This document shows, one piece after another, positions 5,810 through 37,212 of a stretch of 51,543 nt of DNA. Positions within the stretch are counted from its first letter, which is position 1. Every line of letters begins with the position of its first letter. The notes under the pieces are model-generated. The model saw only the letters and a program-made list of their open reading frames with translations. It searched no databases and had not been told where the DNA came from. Origin of the DNA: a virus. The stretch spans positions 1 to 51,543 of the IMG/VR virus record IMGVR_UViG_3300024054_000001; one strand, written 5' to 3'. A program made the position numbers and the translations under genes.

Positions 5810-7098
5810 CCGACGTATTCTACCCGCGAGCACTGGTGCAACTGCACGCGCGAGTGCTCGGCCAGGATGTGACCACGTCGATCGAGCCGCACCGGGTGTC
5901 GCTCACACGCCGGCCACACAACCAGGCCGACGAGGTCGAGGTCGAGATTCACGGGACGGCGCTGCCGTTCGAACCACGTCACATCGAGGACCTCTGGCTC
6001 GGCGTGTTCCTCGGAGATCCCCGGTCGATGTCTGGGCGCGTCGACACGGATCGCTTCCTGCGGTTCGTGGGCTACGCGGACGACATGGAACCGGGCAATC
6101 CGGCCGCCGAGGCGCCGCGCGTGAAGATCACGGCGCGTGATCGCAGCGCCCAACTGCGCGACTTCAAGCCGCTACCCGTCGCAGCGCAGCCCCGTTACGG
6201 CGACATGCTCGGGCAGGCGATCGAGCGCATCCTTGCAGCGGTGCCGTCGGCCGTCGGCATGGAGCTGCGCTCAAGCGAACACGCATCGATTCCGCTCGCG
6301 CCGCTGGTATCGGCCCGGGCACGTGCCGGACGTATCCCGCTGCCGAACGACTGCACGGCCTGGCAGGCCATCGAGCACGTCTGCGGCCTATGCGCTCGCG
6401 AGGTCACCATCGACCTCGAGGACGTCGTCATCCAGGTGCCCACGGCAGCCCGGTCGAGCCCCTCGGAGGCGGCGGCGAACTTCGTCTTCGGTGGCGTCCG
6501 CGGAAACCTGCTCGAGGCGAAGCGGAAGAAGAAGTTCCAGCGCAACCGCAACGGCGTGCGGGTCGTCTCGTTCGATCCGGCGACGCGACGACGCGTCGAG
6601 GCCGTCTACCCGCCCGACGGTCAGCTCCCGAGACGACATCGCGCGCGAGGACGTCGCGGCGGCGGCGGAGCACAGCCGCCGGAGCGCGACATCTTCGCCC
6701 TCGGCGACGGCATCACGTCGCACGATCAGCTCGAGGAGTACGCCCGACGCATCTACCTCGAGCGGTCGAGGCAGGAGGTCGAGGTCGAGATCGAGTGTCC
6801 GTTCCCGACGGACCAGCACATCGGTCTGCGCAACGGCGACCGCGTCTCGATCGAGATCGAGCCCGGCCTCGCCGACGACATTCGCGGCAGCGGCACGGGC
6901 GCTGTCGCGCTGCTCGAGCGGCGGCTCGGCGTCGACCGCGAAGTCGCGCAGATCCTGGTTCGCTCGGCGCGCGAGCCCACCACGAACCTCTTCTACGCGA
7001 AGACGATCACGACCGAGTTCTCGGCCACCGAGAAGACCGTCGTGAAGATCGACGCGATCAATCTGATTCTCGCCATCGACGACCGTCAAGCCGCATGA
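5806..7098 (+). CDS. Baseplate hub protein (gpD / Mu gp44-like)
   Basis: This 430-residue protein lies between tape measure and spike, the gpD/gp44 slot (T4 gp27-like). It opens with YPRALVQLHARVLGQDVT, a strand-rich start, followed by VSLTRRPHNQADEVEVEI, the common domain-1 pattern. It later has TAWQAIEHVCGLCAREVTI, typical of the middle domain of these hubs. A basic, Gly-rich loop (about residues 265-295) may be flexible. The ATG at 5806 overlaps the previous stop, which rules out the much longer upstream reading in this frame. Confidence 0.82.
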   Translation: MTDVFYPRALVQLHARVLGQDVTTSIEPHRVSLTRRPHNQADEVEVEIHGTALPFEPRHIEDLWLGVFLGDPRSMSGRVDTDRFLRFVGYADDMEPGNPAAEAPRVKITARDRSAQLRDFKPLPVAAQPRYGDMLGQAIERILAAVPSAVGMELRSSEHASIPLAPLVSARARAGRIPLPNDCTAWQAIEHVCGLCAREVTIDLEDVVIQVPTAARSSPSEAAANFVFGGVRGNLLEAKRKKKFQRNRNGVRVVSFDPATRRRVEAVYPPDGQLPRRHRARGRRGGGGAQPPERDIFALGDGITSHDQLEEYARRIYLERSRQEVEVEIECPFPTDQHIGLRNGDRVSIEIEPGLADDIRGSGTGAVALLERRLGVDREVAQILVRSAREPTTNLFYAKTITTEFSATEKTVVKIDAINLILAIDDRQAA

Positions 7099-13106: not shown

Positions 13107-13868
13107 TCACCGACAGGGGACCAACCCCATCGAGTTGAAGCACGAGCACGCGCGTCCCGATGGGCTGCAAACCATGCAGGTCGGAGCAGTGATCGAGGCG
13201 TAGAGGAAGATGCGCCAGGTTCCGACGCGCATGTCGACGCCCGGATAGATGCAGGCGGCGACCGAATCGCCGACCAGCAACCCCAGGCGCATCGCGTCGG
13301 CAAAGCAGTTGTAGTGCTCCGGGCTCGGACTCATCGGGGGCGGAAACGTCGGCTCGCGAGGGTTGTTGTCCGCGAAGCCGTCGCAGTCGTCGTCGACGCC
13401 GTCGCACCGCTCGAGCGGGTAGCCCGGTCGACGGAGTCGGTTCGAATCGTCGCAGTCGTCGGCGTTGTCGACCGTCCCGTCGGGGCACGCTGCGCCGCAC
13501 ACGACCATCACGGGTCGCGTGCGATCGCCGAACGTGTCGCGGTCGCTGTCCTGGTAGCAGGTGCGTTCGCATCGGTCCGACGGAACGTCGCCGGCGTCGG
13601 CACGGTGGCAGAACCCATCGGCGCCGCAGGTCTCGCCCGCGAAGCACGGTGGCGAGCACCGATACGCGCCGTCGGGGTACCGCCAGGCCTCATCGACGAC
13701 GTCGGTAGCGTCGAGTGGCGTCGGCGTGTCGGTCGACGCGTCGACGACGTCGACGTTCGCGTCCGTCGCGATCTCGACGCTCGCGTCGTTCGTCGTCACG
13801 TCCGTCGCTCCCGTCGTGCCGCAGCCACCGGCTGCGCAGGCAGCTACGAGGCCCCAGATGATTCGCAT
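13107..13868 (-). CDS. MopE-type Asp/Cys-repeat lipoprotein (moron)
   Basis: This 253-residue protein is the only minus-strand gene in the structural region. It begins with a short positive, hydrophobic leader ending in A-G-G-C, a plausible lipobox (Cys16). An Asp/Thr-rich linker follows (residues 22-58). Two Cys-rich units come next: CSPPCFAGETCGADGFCH, and a MopE-style calcium/metal-binding repeat, YQDSDRDTFGD then DDCDDSN and ERCDGVDDDCDG. Proteins of this kind are abundant in Myxococcota outer-membrane and surface lipoproteins. It is not needed for virion assembly and is probably expressed from its own promoter, perhaps in lysogens. A cargo role in surface modification is inference. Confidence 0.8.
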   Translation of the reverse strand: MRIIWGLVAACAAGGCGTTGATDVTTNDASVEIATDANVDVVDASTDTPTPLDATDVVDEAWRYPDGAYRCSPPCFAGETCGADGFCHRADAGDVPSDRCERTCYQDSDRDTFGDRTRPVMVVCGAACPDGTVDNADDCDDSNRLRRPGYPLERCDGVDDDCDGFADNNPREPTFPPPMSPSPEHYNCFADAMRLGLLVGDSVAACIYPGVDMRVGTWRIFLYASITAPTCMVCSPSGRACSCFNSMGLVPCR

Positions 13869-22572: not shown

Positions 22573-23892
22573 TCATTTCACGACCCGGCGCCGCGTTCGC
22601 TGCTTCACATCTGCTACAGCGGCTCTCGTCTCACGTGGTTTCGCCAACGGCGACGCAGGCTTGGGCAGCCAGATCGCGCGACTTTTAATCCGTTGGTCCA
22701 GGGTTCGATCCCCTGAGGTCCCACTGTTTTTCTCGGCGTTTCCAGCTTCCGTCAGTCCAGGGAGTCCATGGAGTGCTGCCGAGTCCACCGAGACTGCTAC
22801 ACCGGCGCTACAGTCGATCGTCGCAGCGAGTCGTGACGCGAGCGCGTCGGTCGACAGTCGCGCGTAGACGAGTTGCAGCATCGTCGTCGTGCGGTGTCCC
22901 ATGACGGGTGCGATCAACTCGAGCGGCGCGCCCGCGTGACGCAGCCAGGTCGCGCACGTGCGTCGCAGGTCGTTCGGTGTGCACCGCGTGATCGCCGCGT
23001 CCGCGCACTCGGCGCGATCGCACTGCCAGTGCTTCGCGATCGCGGCAGGGCATCGACGCGCGACGCATCCCGCACGCCGACACGCGCGCTCGAGGTCGCG
23101 CATCGGGTTGGACCACGAGCGGAAGAGCTGGGGTGCACGGCCGCCGGCATGCTCAAGCGCGAACGCGAGCATCGCGGACTGCTCGGGTGACACGATCGGA
23201 ACCTCGCGGTCCGACAGCTCGGTCTTCGTGCCGCGGAGGTGCACGCGATCGCCGCGGGCGTCGCCGCGCTCGGCTCGACACGTCTCGCCCCACCGTGCCG
23301 ACGTCGCGAGGATGAACGCCACGCGCGCGGCTCGGTCGGGCTCGAGGGCGCCGAGAAGTCTCTGGGCCTCGGCGAGCGTGAGCGCGCGCGTCCGTGGACG
23401 GTAGCCGCTCTCGACACGCGCCGGCATCACCGCGTCGATCGCGCCCGACCAGGTCCCGCGTCGCAGCGCCAAGCGCAGCGCCGACCGCAGTGTCGTCAGC
23501 TCCTTCGCGATCGTGTGCTCGCTCGTGCGCTCGCGACGTCGCTGCGACAGGTAGCCGTCGATCGTCGCTGCGTCGAGTTGCGCGGCCGGAAGGTCCCCGC
23601 CGAGCACGCGGAGCCACTGAGCGGCGCAGCCAGCGTAGAACTTCACCGTGGCGTGACTGCGGACGCCAGCGACGGCCTGCTCGTGTCGTGCATCGACGAG
23701 GGTCTGCAGGAGCGTTGCTAGGGTCGTCGACCGCCGCGCTGCGCGGGCCGGATCTTGGGCGGCTCGTTCGAGCCCACGAGCCGCAGACTCGGCCGCTCGT
23801 CGATCATGGCAGCGGGTCGAGCGGCACTGCCGCGCGCCCGACGCGTCGTAGAACCAACACCACCAGACCGAACCTCGGCGATAGAGCCGCAT
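22573..23892 (-). CDS. int: Tyrosine-recombinase integrase with attP inside its 3' coding end
   Basis: This 439-residue protein starts at the ATG at 23892, preceded by GAGGAGG at a 7-nt spacing. The longer reading upstream lacks a ribosome site. N-terminus RLYRRGSVWWCWFYDASG resembles arm-type DNA-binding starts. Catalytic features are R200 (SARWGE), K223 (GTKTE), R310 (PNDLRRTCATW), H333 (MGH) and Y343 (LVYARL). The box II His of HxxR is Asn307 here. Residues 390-404 are encoded by the tRNA-like attP core, and residues 405-439 lie beyond it. Integration therefore changes the C-terminus, as known for phage Mx8 IntP. It is last in the leftward operon. Confidence 0.92.
   Translation of the reverse strand: MRLYRRGSVWWCWFYDASGARQCRSTRCHDRRAAESAARGLERAAQDPARAARRSTTLATLLQTLVDARHEQAVAGVRSHATVKFYAGCAAQWLRVLGGDLPAAQLDAATIDGYLSQRRRERTSEHTIAKELTTLRSALRLALRRGTWSGAIDAVMPARVESGYRPRTRALTLAEAQRLLGALEPDRAARVAFILATSARWGETCRAERGDARGDRVHLRGTKTELSDREVPIVSPEQSAMLAFALEHAGGRAPQLFRSWSNPMRDLERACRRAGCVARRCPAAIAKHWQCDRAECADAAITRCTPNDLRRTCATWLRHAGAPLELIAPVMGHRTTTMLQLVYARLSTDALASRLAATIDCSAGVAVSVDSAALHGLPGLTEAGNAEKNSGTSGDRTLDQRIKSRAIWLPKPASPLAKPRETRAAVADVKQRTRRRVVK
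22682..22723 (+). other. attP: attP core: 3' half of tRNA-Lys (anticodon TTT)
   Basis: From the anticodon loop onward the sequence forms a tRNA 3' half: loop CTTTTAA (22682-22688), stem TCCGT, 5-nt variable loop TGGTC, T-arm CAGGG-TTCGATC-CCCTG (perfect 5 bp), acceptor AGGTCCC and discriminator A at 22723. No CCA is encoded, and the 5' half is missing. The base upstream (CGCGA) does not pair with the anticodon stem, so similarity begins at the anticodon loop, typical for phage attP cores in tRNA genes. It lies inside the integrase coding sequence. Confidence 0.88.
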
Positions 23893-24086
23893 CGGATCGC
23901 CTCCTCGAGCTGCCGCGAATACTGTTGCCACCGGTCGGCCGGGACACGCAAGAACCCTCTCGCCCCACGCTCGCGCCCGGCCGCGCGTCGCAGGTGCTCG
24001 TACGCGAGCGATCGGCTGCATCCGAGCGCCGCCTGCACGTCGTCGACGCCGAGCCACTTCTGCACATGGGGGAGGGGAGCGGTCAT
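23718..24086 (-). CDS. Putative excisionase (HTH recombination directionality factor)
   Basis: This 122-residue protein is encoded just upstream of int. Residues 8-50 read as a winged-helix/excisionase HTH: KWLGVDDVQAALGCSRSLAYEHLRRA, then GFLRVPADRWQQY. The ATG at 24086 overlaps the upstream stop by 4 nt. The C-terminal half is basic and low in complexity. Its last 175 nt overlap the int coding sequence in another frame, which is long for a phage. Xis function is inferred from position and fold. Confidence 0.65.
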   Translation of the reverse strand: MTAPLPHVQKWLGVDDVQAALGCSRSLAYEHLRRAAGRERGARGFLRVPADRWQQYSRQLEEAIRCGSIAEVRSGGVGSTTRRARGSAARPAAMIDERPSLRLVGSNEPPKIRPAQRGGRRP

Positions 24087-26020: not shown

Positions 26021-26492
26021 CGGAACGCCTCGATCGCGAAACGCGTCCATCTCGCCGGGCGCGCTGGTACTCTGCCGAGAGGCCCGCATCCCCCAGCATC
26101 CGCATCACGCTCGCCGGGCCTGCGAGCCCGAGCGTCTGAGCCGCGCGAGTAAGATTCCACGCGTGATGCTCGAGCACGGCGCGCAGAACGCTGGCTCGCA
26201 GGACTCTTGAAACACCGTCGCTCCATCGGCTGACGAAGCTTGCGCCGACGGGCGGCCGCAGAACGCGTTTGCGGTGACCGCCGACCACGATCACGCCAGA
26301 GCGACGTGCCGCAAGGTATTCGCTCTTCAGACCGAGGATCGTGATCTCCCGGAGCACGCCTGCCGCGCCCGAGAGTTTCAGGAGTTCGGCGGCGTGCGTG
26401 AGATTCCATTCGGTCGCGATGAGGACGTCGAGCAGCATCGCCCTGCGAAGCTCCCTGTGCGCGTCGTTCGAGATCTGGATGAGCGGGAACAT
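26007..26492 (-). CDS. Protein with two Fis-type HTH repeats
   Basis: This 161-residue protein contains two copies of the same helical unit: LDVLIATEWNLTHAAELLKL and LRAVLEHHAWNLTRAAQTLGL. Each is followed by a G-A/P-x-x-V-h-R-x-h-x-x-h-G-L segment and a SEY/AEY ending. Each looks like the Fis/NtrC helix-turn-helix in which W-N-x-T-x-A-A-x-x-L is the key phrase. An internal duplication is clear. It starts at ATG 26492, overlapping the ParB-like stop by 1 nt. It is probably a DNA-binding regulator. Confidence 0.65.
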   Translation of the reverse strand: MFPLIQISNDAHRELRRAMLLDVLIATEWNLTHAAELLKLSGAAGVLREITILGLKSEYLAARRSGVIVVGGHRKRVLRPPVGASFVSRWSDGVSRVLRASVLRAVLEHHAWNLTRAAQTLGLAGPASVMRMLGDAGLSAEYQRARRDGRVSRSRRSDGRL

Positions 26493-28219
26493 CACTCCGC
26501 CTCGCCCTCGCACGCCGAGCACACATCGGCTGCGATCCACGAACACGCTTCCCCCTGCTTGGACACGCACGGCGTCGTGTCGGTGCACCCGCAATAGCCG
26601 CACGTGCGGACTTTCGCCGTCTTCGCCGCAGTCGGCTTCTTCGTGGTCTTGTTCGCCGGCGGCTTCGGCTTCTTCTTCGCGGCCGCCTTGGACTTCGCCT
26701 CGTCGGCGACCTGCTTGCGCGCCTCATCGAGCTTCACGCCGAACAGCGCGCACGCCGCGCCGAACGCGCTCCCGTTGTTGGCCTTCGCGGAATTCCACGG
26801 GCCTGCCTTGCGCGAGATCGCCAGCTCGAGCACGAGTGCCCGCAGCTCGCCGCCCTTGAGCCGCTGCAACTCGGCGTTGAGCGCCTTCTCCGCCGGGTCG
26901 CGCTGGTAGCCCTTCGCCTTCGGGATCTCGATCGCACGCCGCCGGCAGACTTCCTTGTGCGTGTCGTTCCAGCTCGTCTCGAGGATCCCCTGGCCGAGCA
27001 CTCGCCAGAACGCGTCGGAGGGCTCGCGCTTCTCGCACGCGCGGACGATGCCGGCGAGCGCGATCGAGAGTGCCAGGTTCTCCGCCCGAGCCTTCTGCTG
27101 CCGGCGCTTCTGGTCGTCGGCGAAGGTGTTGGCCTTGTTCTTCGGCAGCAGCTTGTTCGCGTCGGTCTGCCTGACCAACTCGTGCACGCGGCCGCTCGAG
27201 TCGCGCGCGATCGTCACGGGCGGCAGCTGCCCCTTGAGGATCTGCCGGTACGTGCGCCGCTTGTTGTCGGCGTAGTCGGTCTGGTCCAGGTCGAGGAACC
27301 CGGACCTGCTCTCGAGTGACGAACTGTACGGGAAAGCCTTCTTCGCCTCCGCGTCGGAGAGTACCTTGAGACCCTTCGCGCGCGCCGCGTCCGCCTTCTT
27401 CGCCCACGCCGCGTCGCGCTTCGCGCCGAAGCACGCCGGATCGGTGCACGTGTCGGGGCTCTTCACGTCAGCGAACAGCTCGGCCTGGTTGCCCGTGCGC
27501 TTCGGGCACGTGGTGCACGCCCCAGCCTTCGGCACGAGCGTCCCGTCACCGCGGTCGAACGGAGCGTCTTTCAACCCGAGCAGGAAGCCCCTGTCGAGCA
27601 TCCGCCGCACCAGCCAGGTCGCTGGCGGGGTGACCGTGTCCCCGTCGACGTCGGTTTCCTCCTCGATCGCATCGAGCAGCCGCTGCTGCAGCTCGGGCGT
27701 CGGTAGGCGCGCGACCATCAACGCCGTCGCCGGCGTCAGCCACCCCTCGTAGAACGCCTTGCGCGCGGGCTTGGACAGCGCGCAGAGCTTCATCCGCGCG
27801 TAGACCGTCGACGGCGCCTTGCCGACCTTCGCCGCGATCTCCTCGACCGACAGGCGGTGCTTCGTGTGCAGGACCTCGTAGCCTTCGGCCTCCTCGAGCG
27901 GGTGGATCTCGATGCGCTTCGAGTTCTCCACGAGTTGCATCTCGAGAGCTTCCTGATCGGAGAGCTTCCGGACGGTCGCGAGCAGCGACTTCAGTCCTGC
28001 CACCTGCGCCGCCCGAAACCGGCAATGGCCGAACACGATCTCGTAGCCCTCGCCCGACACGGGCTCGAGACGCACGAGGATTGGCTGCAACTGCCCGTGC
28101 TGTTTCAGGTCGGCCGCAAGCTCGGCGATCGCGGCCGCGGGGAACGTCTTGCGTGGATTGAAGGGCGACTCGACCAGCGCGGTGAGCGGGATCTCTTGGT
28201 ACGGCGACGGTGCAGTCAT
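26492..28219 (-). CDS. ParB/Spo0J-family protein with C-terminal Cys cluster
   Basis: This 575-residue protein starts with a ParB N-terminal domain: IPLTALVESPFNPRKTF, then a helix, and GHCRFRAAQVAGL (the G-x-R/C-R-x-R-A CTP-binding box). A KorB-type HTH region follows (RLSVEEIAAKVGKAPSTVYARMKL, residues about 130-160). The middle is long and includes a Cys cluster (CTTCPKRTG...CTDPACFGAK, about residues 230-260). The C-terminus has Lys-rich linkers and a final CGYCGCTDTTPC...C...CSAC zinc-like knot. No ParA is encoded here, so a plasmid-partition role is doubtful. Similar solitary phage ParB-like proteins act in regulation or as nucleases. Call is sure at family level only. Confidence 0.8.
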   Translation of the reverse strand: MTAPSPYQEIPLTALVESPFNPRKTFPAAAIAELAADLKQHGQLQPILVRLEPVSGEGYEIVFGHCRFRAAQVAGLKSLLATVRKLSDQEALEMQLVENSKRIEIHPLEEAEGYEVLHTKHRLSVEEIAAKVGKAPSTVYARMKLCALSKPARKAFYEGWLTPATALMVARLPTPELQQRLLDAIEEETDVDGDTVTPPATWLVRRMLDRGFLLGLKDAPFDRGDGTLVPKAGACTTCPKRTGNQAELFADVKSPDTCTDPACFGAKRDAAWAKKADAARAKGLKVLSDAEAKKAFPYSSSLESRSGFLDLDQTDYADNKRRTYRQILKGQLPPVTIARDSSGRVHELVRQTDANKLLPKNKANTFADDQKRRQQKARAENLALSIALAGIVRACEKREPSDAFWRVLGQGILETSWNDTHKEVCRRRAIEIPKAKGYQRDPAEKALNAELQRLKGGELRALVLELAISRKAGPWNSAKANNGSAFGAACALFGVKLDEARKQVADEAKSKAAAKKKPKPPANKTTKKPTAAKTAKVRTCGYCGCTDTTPCVSKQGEACSWIAADVCSACEGEAE

Positions 28220-28563
28220 GGTGTCCTCGTTGCCGGCGGCGCCGGCGGCTGAATGGAGTGGGCTCGCAGTTCGCGCCGCATCGCGATCTGCATCGCGCGC
28301 TCGAGCACTGGGCCGGCGTCGAGGCCGAAGAAGTCGAGCACGTCGACCAGCTGCAGCACCGCCAGGCCGGCGATCTGCGTGCGCTGCTCGACGGTGGCGT
28401 TCGGCCCCTGGAAGATCGTCGTGGCGATGAGCTGCCCGACCTCGACGGACTTGATCGCGGCGCAGGCGGCATGCGTGCATGCCTGGCCGGTCGACCGATG
28501 CTGCCGAAGCAGTTCGGCGAGCGTGATCTCGACAGGGACGGCAACGAGGGCGTCGACGCTCAT
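28216..28563 (-). CDS. Small early protein
   Basis: This 115-residue protein (MSVDALVAVPVEITLAELL start) is helical with hydrophobic stretches (IAGLAVLQLVDVLDFFGLDAGPVLERA). No family is recognised. It overlaps the ParB-like and coiled-coil genes by 4 nt each. Confidence 0.52.
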   Translation of the reverse strand: MSVDALVAVPVEITLAELLRQHRSTGQACTHAACAAIKSVEVGQLIATTIFQGPNATVEQRTQIAGLAVLQLVDVLDFFGLDAGPVLERAMQIAMRRELRAHSIQPPAPPATRTP

Positions 28564-34194: not shown

Positions 34195-34793
34195 GGCTTG
34201 ACTTTCCTGGACTCGATCGTATGCACGTCGGCTTCGTCGCGCAACTCGGCCACTGTTGCAGGGACCGATACCGCCGCTACTCGGACCGCTGCGGGTGAGT
34301 CGCGACGATCCAAGAGCACGCGGACGCGTCGCAGCAAGTCGTCGAGTGAATCGGCCATCACGCGAACGTCTCCGCTCCGGACCAGCGTGCGTAGCGCCGC
34401 CCAAACGAAGGGCAGCGCAGGCCACCAGCCGATCAGCGCGGCGTCGATTCCATGCGCTTTCACCGCCGACGCAAAGAGCCCGAGCAGCGTCGTGAGCGTC
34501 GCTCCTGCGATCGTCACCGATCGTGCCGCGCGCCGTCGGAGGCTGTCTCGGGTCATGGTCATGTCACCGAGCGACGCCGGTAGGAGCGCGCGATCGAGGC
34601 CCTGGAGTCCGTGCGCGTCGAGTTCTTGATGTGCGACGTGGATCGCTGACAGGAAATCCGCGGTCGTGAGCTGATCGCTCCTGGTTGCGAGCGCGTCGAA
34701 AGACTCGGCCGCCGTTCGATATGGGTGTTTGATGCGAGATGCCTCGGAAAGCGCGTCGCGGACAATCTTCGCGGCCTCTTTCTCTGCGCTCAT
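34191..34793 (-). CDS. Membrane protein encoded with the repressor
   Basis: This 200-residue protein has a helical N-terminus (SAEKEAAKIVRDALSEASRIK) and two hydrophobic segments near residues 88-135 (VTIAGATLTTLLGLFASAVKAHG and AALIGWWPALPFVWAAL). A basic/helical C-terminus follows. It overlaps the repressor stop by 4 nt, so it is co-translated with it. Possible superinfection exclusion or lysogen-specific function. No family is recognised. Confidence 0.6.
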   Translation of the reverse strand: MSAEKEAAKIVRDALSEASRIKHPYRTAAESFDALATRSDQLTTADFLSAIHVAHQELDAHGLQGLDRALLPASLGDMTMTRDSLRRRAARSVTIAGATLTTLLGLFASAVKAHGIDAALIGWWPALPFVWAALRTLVRSGDVRVMADSLDDLLRRVRVLLDRRDSPAAVRVAAVSVPATVAELRDEADVHTIESRKVKP

Positions 34794-35452
34794 CGCTTCC
34801 GCCCACCCTTCTTCCTCGCCGCCTCCAGCCTCTTTGCTCCCTCCGCCGGATCCGCGCCCGCTGCCCTCGCCTTCGCCTCGGTCTCGGCGTTCAGCTCGGT
34901 GTCGGCCTGGTCCGCCCGCTCGGTGATCCCGGCCCTGTAGGGCCCGACGGCGACTTGCGCGACCACGTCCCTCGGCGTTGCCTTCCCCGCCCGCCGAACG
35001 GCCCTGGACGCCACGAGGAGATCATGTCCGAGCCGTTCCTGGTCCACACCCTCCCGCGTCAGCCTGGCGACCTCCCGGGCCGCGTCACGTGCGAGGACGA
35101 GGTCGTCGGTCGTGAAGGCCGCTGCGTCCCGTGCGAGGGCTCGAGCGAACGCCAGGGCCACGGCCTGCTCGAGAACCGTCGCGTCCCCGGATGGGGGTTC
35201 GGGGTCGCGGTGGACGACGGTGCCCGCGGGTTCGGGGGTGCCTGGGTCGCCCTTCCCGTCCGCCAGCCACTCGATCGAAACTCCGGTCGCGCGCGCGATC
35301 TTCGTGAGACTGCCGCCCCGCGAGTTGTCGCCGCCACGCTTCAGCATCTTCCCGATGCTGCCCTCGGCCAAGCCGGCTCTCCGACTCAGTTCGCGCTCGG
35401 AGATGTCGAGTCGCGTGAGCAGCACCCGAATGCGGTCCGCAACCGTGCCCAT
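34790..35452 (-). CDS. Phage repressor with N-terminal HTH and no peptidase domain
   Basis: This 220-residue protein starts with an XRE-type HTH (residues 5-62): MGTVADRIRVLLTRLDISERELSRRAGLAEGSIGKMLKRGG, then LTKIARATGVSIEWLADG. The remaining 150 residues are a helical, charged tail with no S24/LexA-like Ser-Lys site. It is therefore not a RecA-autocleaved repressor. The ATG at 35452 is favoured because a PRM-like promoter ends 7 nt upstream; a longer reading to 35548 begins inside the PR operator. Directly divergent from the Cro-like gene. Confidence 0.8.
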   Translation of the reverse strand: MGTVADRIRVLLTRLDISERELSRRAGLAEGSIGKMLKRGGDNSRGGSLTKIARATGVSIEWLADGKGDPGTPEPAGTVVHRDPEPPSGDATVLEQAVALAFARALARDAAAFTTDDLVLARDAAREVARLTREGVDQERLGHDLLVASRAVRRAGKATPRDVVAQVAVGPYRAGITERADQADTELNAETEAKARAAGADPAEGAKRLEAARKKGGRKR

Positions 35453-35488
35453 CGGCGAGACGGTATCGATCCCGCCGACAGCTGTCAC
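35453..35488 (-). promoter_or_regulatory. PRM-like promoter of the repressor, leaderless candidate
   Basis: On the minus strand: GTGACA (35488-35483), 17-nt spacer, TACCGT (35465-35460), 7 nt, then ATG 35452. The spacing is the same as in the two outward promoters (N17 and N7), although the -10 box is weak. It would make a leaderless repressor mRNA, as lambda PRM does. Supported by spacing rather than by strong hexamers. Confidence 0.5.
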
Positions 35489-35510
35489 CAGCGTCCGAGG
35501 CGCAAAGCGG

Positions 35511-35546
35511 TTGACGCCAATTGTCGTCGCGGGTACAAGTGTCGCC
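35511..35546 (+). promoter_or_regulatory. PR-like rightward promoter, leaderless
   Basis: TTGACG (35511-35516), 17-nt spacer, TACAAG (35534-35539), 7 nt TGTCGCC, then ATG at 35547. The 17-base string from GTACAAG to the ATG is identical to the leftward promoter (32545-32529). An imperfect operator (one half-site GTACAAG, one weak TTGT-containing half) overlaps the spacer and -10. Confidence 0.82.
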
Positions 35547-35846
35547 ATGAATTCATCCCTCGGTTCGCGTCTGGCCCGGTTGCGGGACCTCGCAGGCGTA
35601 TCCCAGCGAGCCCTCGGATCGGCCGCCGGTCTCGATCCGAGCCACGTGCGTCTGATCGAGACAGGTGCGCGTGAAAACCTCCACCCCGACACGATCGCCT
35701 CGCTCGCAAGCGCCCTTGGCGTGACGACGGACTGGCTGATCCTCGGGACGGGGCCCGAGCCGACGGTGGAGCAGGTGCGGGCAGCGGTTGCGGCCGCGCG
35801 CGAGCGCCTGGCAGCGGCGCCAAAGGTCACCGGGACGGAGGGCTGA
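35547..35846 (+). CDS. Cro-like XRE-family regulator
   Basis: This 99-residue protein has an HTH domain from residue 5: LGSRLARLRDLAGVSQRALGSAAGLDPSHVRLIETGARENLHPDTIASLASALGVTTDWLILG. This is the XRE/Cro pattern. It is the first gene after the PR-like promoter and starts at the transcript's first codon. It is divergent from the repressor gene, as Cro is. The N-terminus reads MNSSLGS because the longer upstream ORF is not translated from this message. Confidence 0.8.
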   Translation: MNSSLGSRLARLRDLAGVSQRALGSAAGLDPSHVRLIETGARENLHPDTIASLASALGVTTDWLILGTGPEPTVEQVRAAVAAARERLAAAPKVTGTEG

Positions 35847-35849
35847 TCG

Positions 35850-36068
35850 GTGGACGACGACGTCGCCACGATCCGGCGTGACGGGCACCTCACGCACTGC
35901 ACGGTGCTCGAGCAGCCGCCGTTCGGCGACCGCGTCGTCGTCGACCACTGCGGCGTGCGGCGCGTGTTCAAGCGCTCGCAGCGCTGGGTCGACCTCGACG
36001 GCTTCGAGCTGCTCGCACCACACACGACGACGGTCGGCACCGACGCAACGCGCAGGGAGGGCCAATGA
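35850..36068 (+). CDS. Small early protein
   Basis: This 72-residue protein starts with GTG at 35850, 3 nt after the Cro-like stop. It is small and mixed (MDDDVATIRRDGHLTHCTVLEQPPFGDRVVVDHCG), with two Cys/His positions that do not form a clear zinc motif. It overlaps the next gene by 4 nt. Confidence 0.52.
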   Translation: MDDDVATIRRDGHLTHCTVLEQPPFGDRVVVDHCGVRRVFKRSQRWVDLDGFELLAPHTTTVGTDATRREGQ

Positions 36069-36544
36069 GCGACGGAGAACGCACTGCACGCCGGAGCAGC
36101 CGGCGAGACGCCGCGAAGGCCGCGGCCGCGCGCGCATTCGATCGCACGATCCGGGGGCGTGACTTGACGAACGACGCCGCCGGCGAGGTCCTGGGCGTGA
36201 ACGCCACGCGGGCGCGCCGGTTGCGTTCGGACGATCGAGACGACCTCGACGTTTCCCCCGGCACGCACGACCTGCTGCTCGTCGATCGAGAGACCTACGA
36301 GCGCTGGCTGCTCGAGCTGGGACTCGCGCGCGAGTCGATGCACGCGCCGGCGGCGCTCGAGAAGCTCGAGCCGCAGCTCGCTCGCGCGCTGCAGCGATGT
36401 GCTCGCGTGTCGCTGCGCGGCGCGGAGGCCCTCGAGGACGGCGTCGTCACACCCGACGAGATCCCGACGCTGCTCGAGGACGCGAAGGCCCAGTTGATCG
36501 AGTTGGGCCGGCTGGTCGAGGCGCTGCAGCGGAGGATGCGATGA
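36065..36544 (+). CDS. Small early protein
   Basis: This 159-residue protein is mainly helical. The N-terminal half is basic (ARRSSRRDAAKAAAARAFD) and the C-terminus is long helices (TLLEDAKAQLIELGRLVEALQRRM). No family is recognised. It overlaps neighbours by 4 nt. Confidence 0.52.
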   Translation: MSDGERTARRSSRRDAAKAAAARAFDRTIRGRDLTNDAAGEVLGVNATRARRLRSDDRDDLDVSPGTHDLLLVDRETYERWLLELGLARESMHAPAALEKLEPQLARALQRCARVSLRGAEALEDGVVTPDEIPTLLEDAKAQLIELGRLVEALQRRMR

Positions 36545-37212
36545 TCGATCCGGCCGCCTACGTCGTCTGCGAACTCGACGGCAGCATAGTGCACACGACG
36601 ACCGACAGCGAGGACGCCACGCGCGTGCTCTCGCGCGATCCCGCACGCAGGTGCGTCGTGCGCAACGGCGCTGTGCTGCGCTGGGGCGCCGACATCAAGC
36701 CAGGGGAACGCACGAGCGCGGAGGCTTTCCTGCGCCGCGCAAGGCTGATCACAGGCCGAGCGTCCACGTCACCTGAGGAGACCCGTGCTCGCATCGCGCA
36801 TAGCGACGCGAAGCCCGACAACGTCACGCCGGCGCCGCCGGCCGAGGAGGACAACTTGCCATCGACGAACATCTCGCACGAGACCTGCCGGTTCGAAGGC
36901 TGCACATCCGAGATCGGGATGATCCGCTCGGACACTCGCAAGGAGTGGCAGGTCTTCTGTCGCAAGCATCGCAGCACGATGCGCAACCTCGAGCGTAACC
37001 GTTCGACGGCGGTGAAGACAAAGACCACGAGCAAGGCTCCGAAGCCGAAGCCTGCGTCGAAGCAGGCGACGCCGACGAAGCCAAAGAAGCCCACGCAGCG
37101 CGAGCCTCGCGTGGTCGACATCTTCGACGAGATGCGTCGCTGCGTCGCCGTGGTCGACCAGCTCGGCGGCATCGAGAAGGCGGAACAGCTTGCGTCGGTG
37201 ATCGGCCGATGA
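36541..37212 (+). CDS. Early protein with a zinc-finger-like Cys/His cluster
   Basis: This 223-residue protein has a small N-terminal domain, a central C-x4-C...C-x2-H cluster (CRFEGCTSEIG...WQVFCRKH, about residues 116-146), and a long Lys/Pro/Thr linker (TKTTSKAPKPKPASKQATPT). Its C-terminal helix (FDEMRRCVAVVDQLGGIEKAEQLAS) may bind a partner. A role in nucleic acid binding is plausible. No family is certain. Confidence 0.55.
   Translation: MIDPAAYVVCELDGSIVHTTTDSEDATRVLSRDPARRCVVRNGAVLRWGADIKPGERTSAEAFLRRARLITGRASTSPEETRARIAHSDAKPDNVTPAPPAEEDNLPSTNISHETCRFEGCTSEIGMIRSDTRKEWQVFCRKHRSTMRNLERNRSTAVKTKTTSKAPKPKPASKQATPTKPKKPTQREPRVVDIFDEMRRCVAVVDQLGGIEKAEQLASVIGR

Follow-up and report, generated by a model that had tools for sequence, protein, structure and literature searches.

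The window analysed here, the whole stretch of 51,543 nt, carries on its minus strand an integrase gene whose reading frame runs across the 3' half of a tRNA gene. The locus comprises the following features:

22573-23892, minus strand: int, a tyrosine integrase of 439 aa in the attP form (translation, Pfam, PHROG, AlphaFold model).
22813-23892, minus strand: integrase body, residues 1-360 (columns of alignment A3).
22724-22812, minus strand: linker from the body to the core, residues 361-389, open in frame, predicted to be disordered and not conserved in sequence.
22682-22723, plus strand: attP core, corresponding to a tRNA-Lys(TTT) 3' half; its antisense encodes int residues 390-404 (sequence, scan for T-arm and anticodon loop).
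22699-22715, plus strand: T-arm of the tRNA half, CAGGG TTCGATC CCCTG, with 5/5 pairs (sequence, T-arm scan).
22573-22681, minus strand: the 35 phage-specific C-terminal residues of Int (RAIWLPKPASPLAKPRETRAAVADVKQRTRRRVVK), followed by the stop codon (translation).
23718-24086, minus strand: small HTH ORF overlapping the start of int, a putative excisionase or directionality factor, cf. Uoi of Mx8 (phmmer).

A 127-bp repeat is common to both ends of the window, and a second contig, 100% identical and from another metagenome, spans the end junction with a single copy of this repeat. It follows that the genome is circular, with a length of 51,416 bp and one tRNA half, which is the attP form. 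The second contig does not include the int region, and the 3' end of int is known from one metagenome assembly. Matches to terminase, portal, capsid and tail-sheath proteins indicate a contractile-tailed phage, the host of which most likely belongs to the Myxococcota.

The integrase matches PF00589 (Phage_integrase) over residues 171-346 (E = 9e-10, above the cut-off) and the PHROG integrase family phrog_1 (E = 2e-37). Its catalytic domain contains the R, K, R, H and Y of a tyrosine recombinase, namely R200, K223, R310, H333 and Y343, which are invariant or nearly so in alignment A3; many relatives in this alignment have His at the position of N307. In the AlphaFold model, pLDDT exceeds 90 over most of residues 1-360, the structure is confident to about residue 360, and the chain is disordered from residue 364. 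The core lies 47 residues past the catalytic Tyr and leaves the body unaffected.

On the plus strand the 42 bp of the core read CTTTTAA-TCCGT-TGGTC-CAGGG-TTCGATC-CCCTG-AGGTCCC-A, that is, an anticodon loop with TTT, the 3' strand of the anticodon stem, the variable loop, the T-arm, the 3' acceptor strand and the discriminator base. We regard it as a half gene because ARAGORN detects no complete tRNA in the window, and not as a chance resemblance because the nearest relatives of this integrase have a tRNA 3' half at the same spot; an Rfam scan of the region gave matches below threshold only. The coordinates and residue numbers proposed in an earlier sequence-only reading of this DNA proved right: the int ORF stays in frame across the antisense tRNA half, and its translation extends 35 residues beyond it. 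A tRNA-derived core thus lies within the int frame of the phage form, as in Mx8, which was checked in the same way. Relative to the T-arm, the window int is read in phase 1, which is rare among its integrase family.

The small ORF that overlaps the start of int has no Pfam match, and its phmmer matches immediately precede int in more than 20 loci of the integrase family. By analogy with Uoi in Mx8, this ORF is likely an excisionase gene.

Integration at the anticodon loop would restore a complete host tRNA; int would lose its final 35 codons, and its body would become fused to the tRNA 5' half in antisense orientation. Only a few residues would follow the core in the prophage Int, which would retain the whole catalytic body and the linker and terminate at a stop codon antisense to position 7-9 or 12-14 of the host tRNA, depending on the length of the D-loop; excision would restore the long form. 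As the predicted disorder begins after the body, both forms keep the whole enzyme. When the window core was completed by grafting on 5' halves taken from three actual tRNA-Lys genes of Myxococcota, the resulting lysogen integrases were of 411, 411 and 409 aa, ended in PLLYRLS or PMLYH, and stopped at tRNA positions 7-9 (TAA) or 12-14 (TGA). The 35-residue phage-specific end is thereby predicted to be lost upon integration and replaced by 5-7 residues, depending on the actual tRNA of the host. These grafts ruled out one further candidate outcome, in which the odd frame of the window would read through the tRNA into host DNA. The suggestion that the lysogen makes an integrase with a different C-terminus agrees with what is seen in relatives (see below) and is predicted for this phage, with the refinement that the stop would lie inside the tRNA rather than in a random read-out of host sequence. 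A search for a prophage of this phage joined to a tRNA-Lys(TTT) through this core found none: the exact 42-bp core had no match in 84,980 species genomes and IMG/VR, and no copy with up to three mismatches was present in 574 genomes (195 and 379, from two phyla) that had been reached from the loci of the integrase family.

The window integrase, searched alone, has no close relatives in IMG/VR or phage GenBank, and has one weak match in a plasmid. A more distant integrase (L011, 38% identity) was the starting point for a family alignment, and searches with an alignment of first two and then twelve rows yielded 25 loci in IMG/VR and 43 loci in species genomes, the latter nearly all in Myxococcota; extra family loci came from whole-genome searches. 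The strongly matching members of the family target tRNA-Phe, Lys, Asn and Met. In the closest attP-like relatives the tRNA half lies inside the int frame (tRNA-Phe in L015, L016, L017, L021 and L024, and tRNA-Met in L014). The attP-in-int layout is recurrent in elements of the Myxococcota, and the window phage is one of this many-membered family rather than the second, independent example that it had been taken for. The overlap with the tRNA is not essential to the enzyme, since in some relatives int stops before the core (L019, L020 and L025) and others are at no tRNA (L044, L045 and L048). Two variants of the arrangement were also noticed. In a clade of four loci (L063, L066, L070 and L081) int has an early stop and a tRNA-Phe lies ~300-560 nt downstream, so that this clade has possibly lost the overlap; and in L052, near position ~6258, the int tail reads across a tRNA 3' half in sense orientation instead of antisense (NPRVGGSTPS).

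Relatives display the exchange of integrase tails directly. One contig of a Myxococcota MAG (L039, G026:C142) contains an integrated element of 10,755 bp with a tRNA-Phe and int at one end and an identical copy of the 48-bp core at the other, both att sites being present. Its integrase has 396 aa in the integrated state (ending in VHCSTN) and 438 aa in the reconstructed excised form; the two have 390 residues in common and diverge exactly at the core. In a second case, the int genes of L050 and L075 are 97.6% identical in DNA up to the end of the core, beyond which one continues into a tRNA 5' half and the other into unrelated DNA. Both cases bear out the view that attP lies inside int and that integration extends the int body into antisense sequence of the tRNA 5' half. 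The 3' end of int thus differs with integration in relatives, and for the window phage the same exchange is a prediction. The L039 element (G026:C142:67255-78085), at 10.75 kb far smaller than the phage and with a resolvase-like ORF, is perhaps a satellite or an island with the same integrase.

Among described systems, phage Mx8 of Myxococcus is the nearest in layout. In its sequence (AF396866), the T-arm half lies inside int at 6453-6469. Joining this frame to the tRNA-Asp of related genomes leaves 421 residues shared and replaces 112 residues by 13, with a computed lysogen stop (TAA) at tRNA positions 7-9, so that Mx8, which had been named as a known case, was recomputed as one. This outcome reportedly fits the original description of 1996. 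In both phages the attP core, inside int, consists of a 3' fragment of a tRNA, the C-terminus is swapped on integration (by prediction in the window), a small HTH excisionase gene (Uoi in Mx8, putative in the window) overlaps the start of int, and the computed lysogen stop lies inside the tRNA. They differ in the target, which is tRNA-Asp in Mx8 and tRNA-Lys in the window, and in the core, which in Mx8 covers approximately the T-arm and 3' end only, whereas the window core is the half starting from the anticodon. The Mx8 integrase is remote from that of the window (a blastp match of 33 aa, and 28 bits to the family profile); the two have the same layout in different integrase lineages, and this layout is either old or has arisen more than once. 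As summarized in a review of myxophages (PMC6070905, referring to Tojo 1996 and Magrini 1999), integration of Mx8 gives int a new 3' end and alters the specificity of the enzyme rather than inactivating it. The same principle has been reported for int/attP of Mx9 (Julien 2003, via PMC6070905).

Two other types of systems have an attachment site inside a coding gene. In the integration-dependent immunity of mycobacteriophages of the BPs type (PMC8092301), a stop codon located at attL or close to it truncates the product after integration, and some attB sites are in tRNA genes. The altered gene there is the repressor, while the window attP lies in int; the viral form of the repressor often carries an ssrA-like tag, and no such tag ends the int tails seen in the window and its relatives. 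The archaeal 'suicidal' integrases of the SSV/pTN3 type (PMC8371274) also have the att site inside int, but their integration splits and inactivates the enzyme, whereas in the window integration would leave the catalytic body whole.

The position of the stop codon in the integrated state was analysed in 30 strongly matching loci with a whole, intact tRNA adjacent to int. The int ORF ends within the adjacent tRNA in 26 of these, and in all 26 the stop is TGA, antisense to tRNA nucleotides 12-14 (T-C-A); for L125 it is printed as 13-15, as ARAGORN starts this tRNA one base early. The four exceptions are an early stop (L071), a degraded gene (L067) and two genes that read through (L072 and L130). 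Literature searches found no description of such a tRNA-borne stop as a family rule.

This pattern bears on the simplest rival explanation, in which attP abuts int and, in GC-rich DNA poor in stops, int has drifted into the tRNA as a matter of packing without function, both forms of the enzyme acting alike. We hold this possible though doubtful. It accommodates well that the linker and tail residues are not conserved and are predicted to be disordered, that several relatives lack the overlap, and that 21 of the 78 other frames on the same strand (27%) are open across the linker. The int frame itself, however, is open across the linker in 32 of 39 loci (Fisher p = 1e-8, a value that is too small as the loci are related by descent and not independent), far more often than the other frames of the same DNA, and 26 out of 30 genes end at one tRNA stop, an outcome expected by chance in roughly 10-15% of genes. 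A single frame is maintained throughout over linkers of 102 to 228 nt wherever int is in frame at tRNA-Phe, Lys or Asn; L056, scored as phase 2 as its T-arm was placed by offset, has a tail with the same tRNA peptide and stop. The D-loop of tRNA-Met is one base longer, and the integrases at tRNA-Met (L051, L125 and L134) are shifted by one phase, so that their tail peptide is quite different from those at other isotypes while the stop is identical. Since these genes change phase and yet keep the stop, it is the stop rather than the peptide that is kept. The control set consisted of 20 integrases from another subfamily in Myxococcus-like genomes; every one of these genes retains its own stop, 45-81 nt past the body and before any tRNA. 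The class label of ending in a tRNA changes at least 12 times on the integrase tree. Packing explains the free residues, not the kept frame; what the family maintains is a frame that stays open into the tRNA and terminates there.

In the comparison of L050 and L053 the linker has 12 nonsynonymous and 6 synonymous changes and the body 8 and 29, and there is no clear sign of purifying selection on linker residues; the idea of conserved linker residues was not supported. The attP tails of relatives range from ~13 to 160 residues and have no common sequence. Two other roles for these tails were considered and dismissed: basic DNA-binding arms, as their net charge showed no difference from that of other frames (p = 0.41), and an ssrA-like degradation tag, as the window tail ends in VVK and the tails of relatives, compared by eye, have no common AA terminus. 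These variable tails, together with a stop at tRNA 12-14 that is constant across isotypes with different peptides, would fit a second rival, in which only the prophage end matters: the tRNA would serve as a constant terminator replacing a lost int stop and sparing int from variable host DNA, and the attP tail would be a by-product. We consider this explanation unlikely, as it leaves unexplained why other lineages have not reacquired a linker stop like those of L019 and L020, and as the review cited above reports changed behaviour of the Mx8 integrase (PMC6070905). By analogy with Mx8 and with the mycobacteriophage repressors, it is plausible that the role of the tail swap is to make the prophage Int differ from the Int of the infecting phage. 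The swap may give directional control of the kind proposed in the earlier reading, with one form for integration and another for excision. The candidate excisionase gene upstream suggests that the swap need not set the direction of recombination alone.

A third rival, an assembly or frameshift artefact in which the true int ends before the core, is highly improbable: the single assembly behind the int 3' end and the unusual T-arm phase of the window would allow it, but of the three same-strand frames across the window linker that of int alone is open, the same layout recurs in relatives of circular and of integrated form across many assemblies, and the window frame joined to real tRNA-Lys 5' halves ends in the tRNA, like that of Mx8.

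We therefore favour, as the likely reading, that the window carries the integration module of a temperate contractile-tailed phage, composed of a putative excisionase gene, int, and attP within int, with an Int tail that depends on integration. What is observed is the layout itself and, among relatives, a tail that depends on state and, in most of them, a stop supplied by the tRNA; the window phage would be expected to make the same exchange. The open frame would be kept because the two tails make Int act differently in each state, as published for Mx8. A broader version, which we put forward tentatively, is that integrases of this family have no stop of their own in the prophage and that the near-universal T-C-A at tRNA 12-14 (antisense TGA) supplies it; the length of Int would then report integration into a rebuilt tRNA and, if the two lengths act differently, would form an integration-sensing switch applicable to any tRNA target.

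The attP-in-int arrangement, previously known from one or two myxophages, becomes a recurrent design in Myxococcota with a simple rule, by which a fixed stop within the tRNA terminates the prophage int. The family offers many natural elements in which C-terminal exchange as a direction switch of tyrosine integrases becomes testable. For genome annotation, the 3' ends of int differ between prophages and free phages, and tRNA-antisense C-termini of int mark the attachment site to the base.

Several other genes of this phage were noticed during the analysis. The gene at 26492-28480 (minus strand) encodes a ParB-like protein with ParB_N and ParB HTH domains, in the same phage as the integrase. A long ORF at 34790-36646 (minus strand) has a CI-type HTH near residues 404-468, and is possibly a repressor fused to another domain or an ORF with a mis-set start. 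A gene at 13107-13868 (minus strand) encodes a protein with a MopE-type metal-binding motif; the phage genes around it lie on the other strand.
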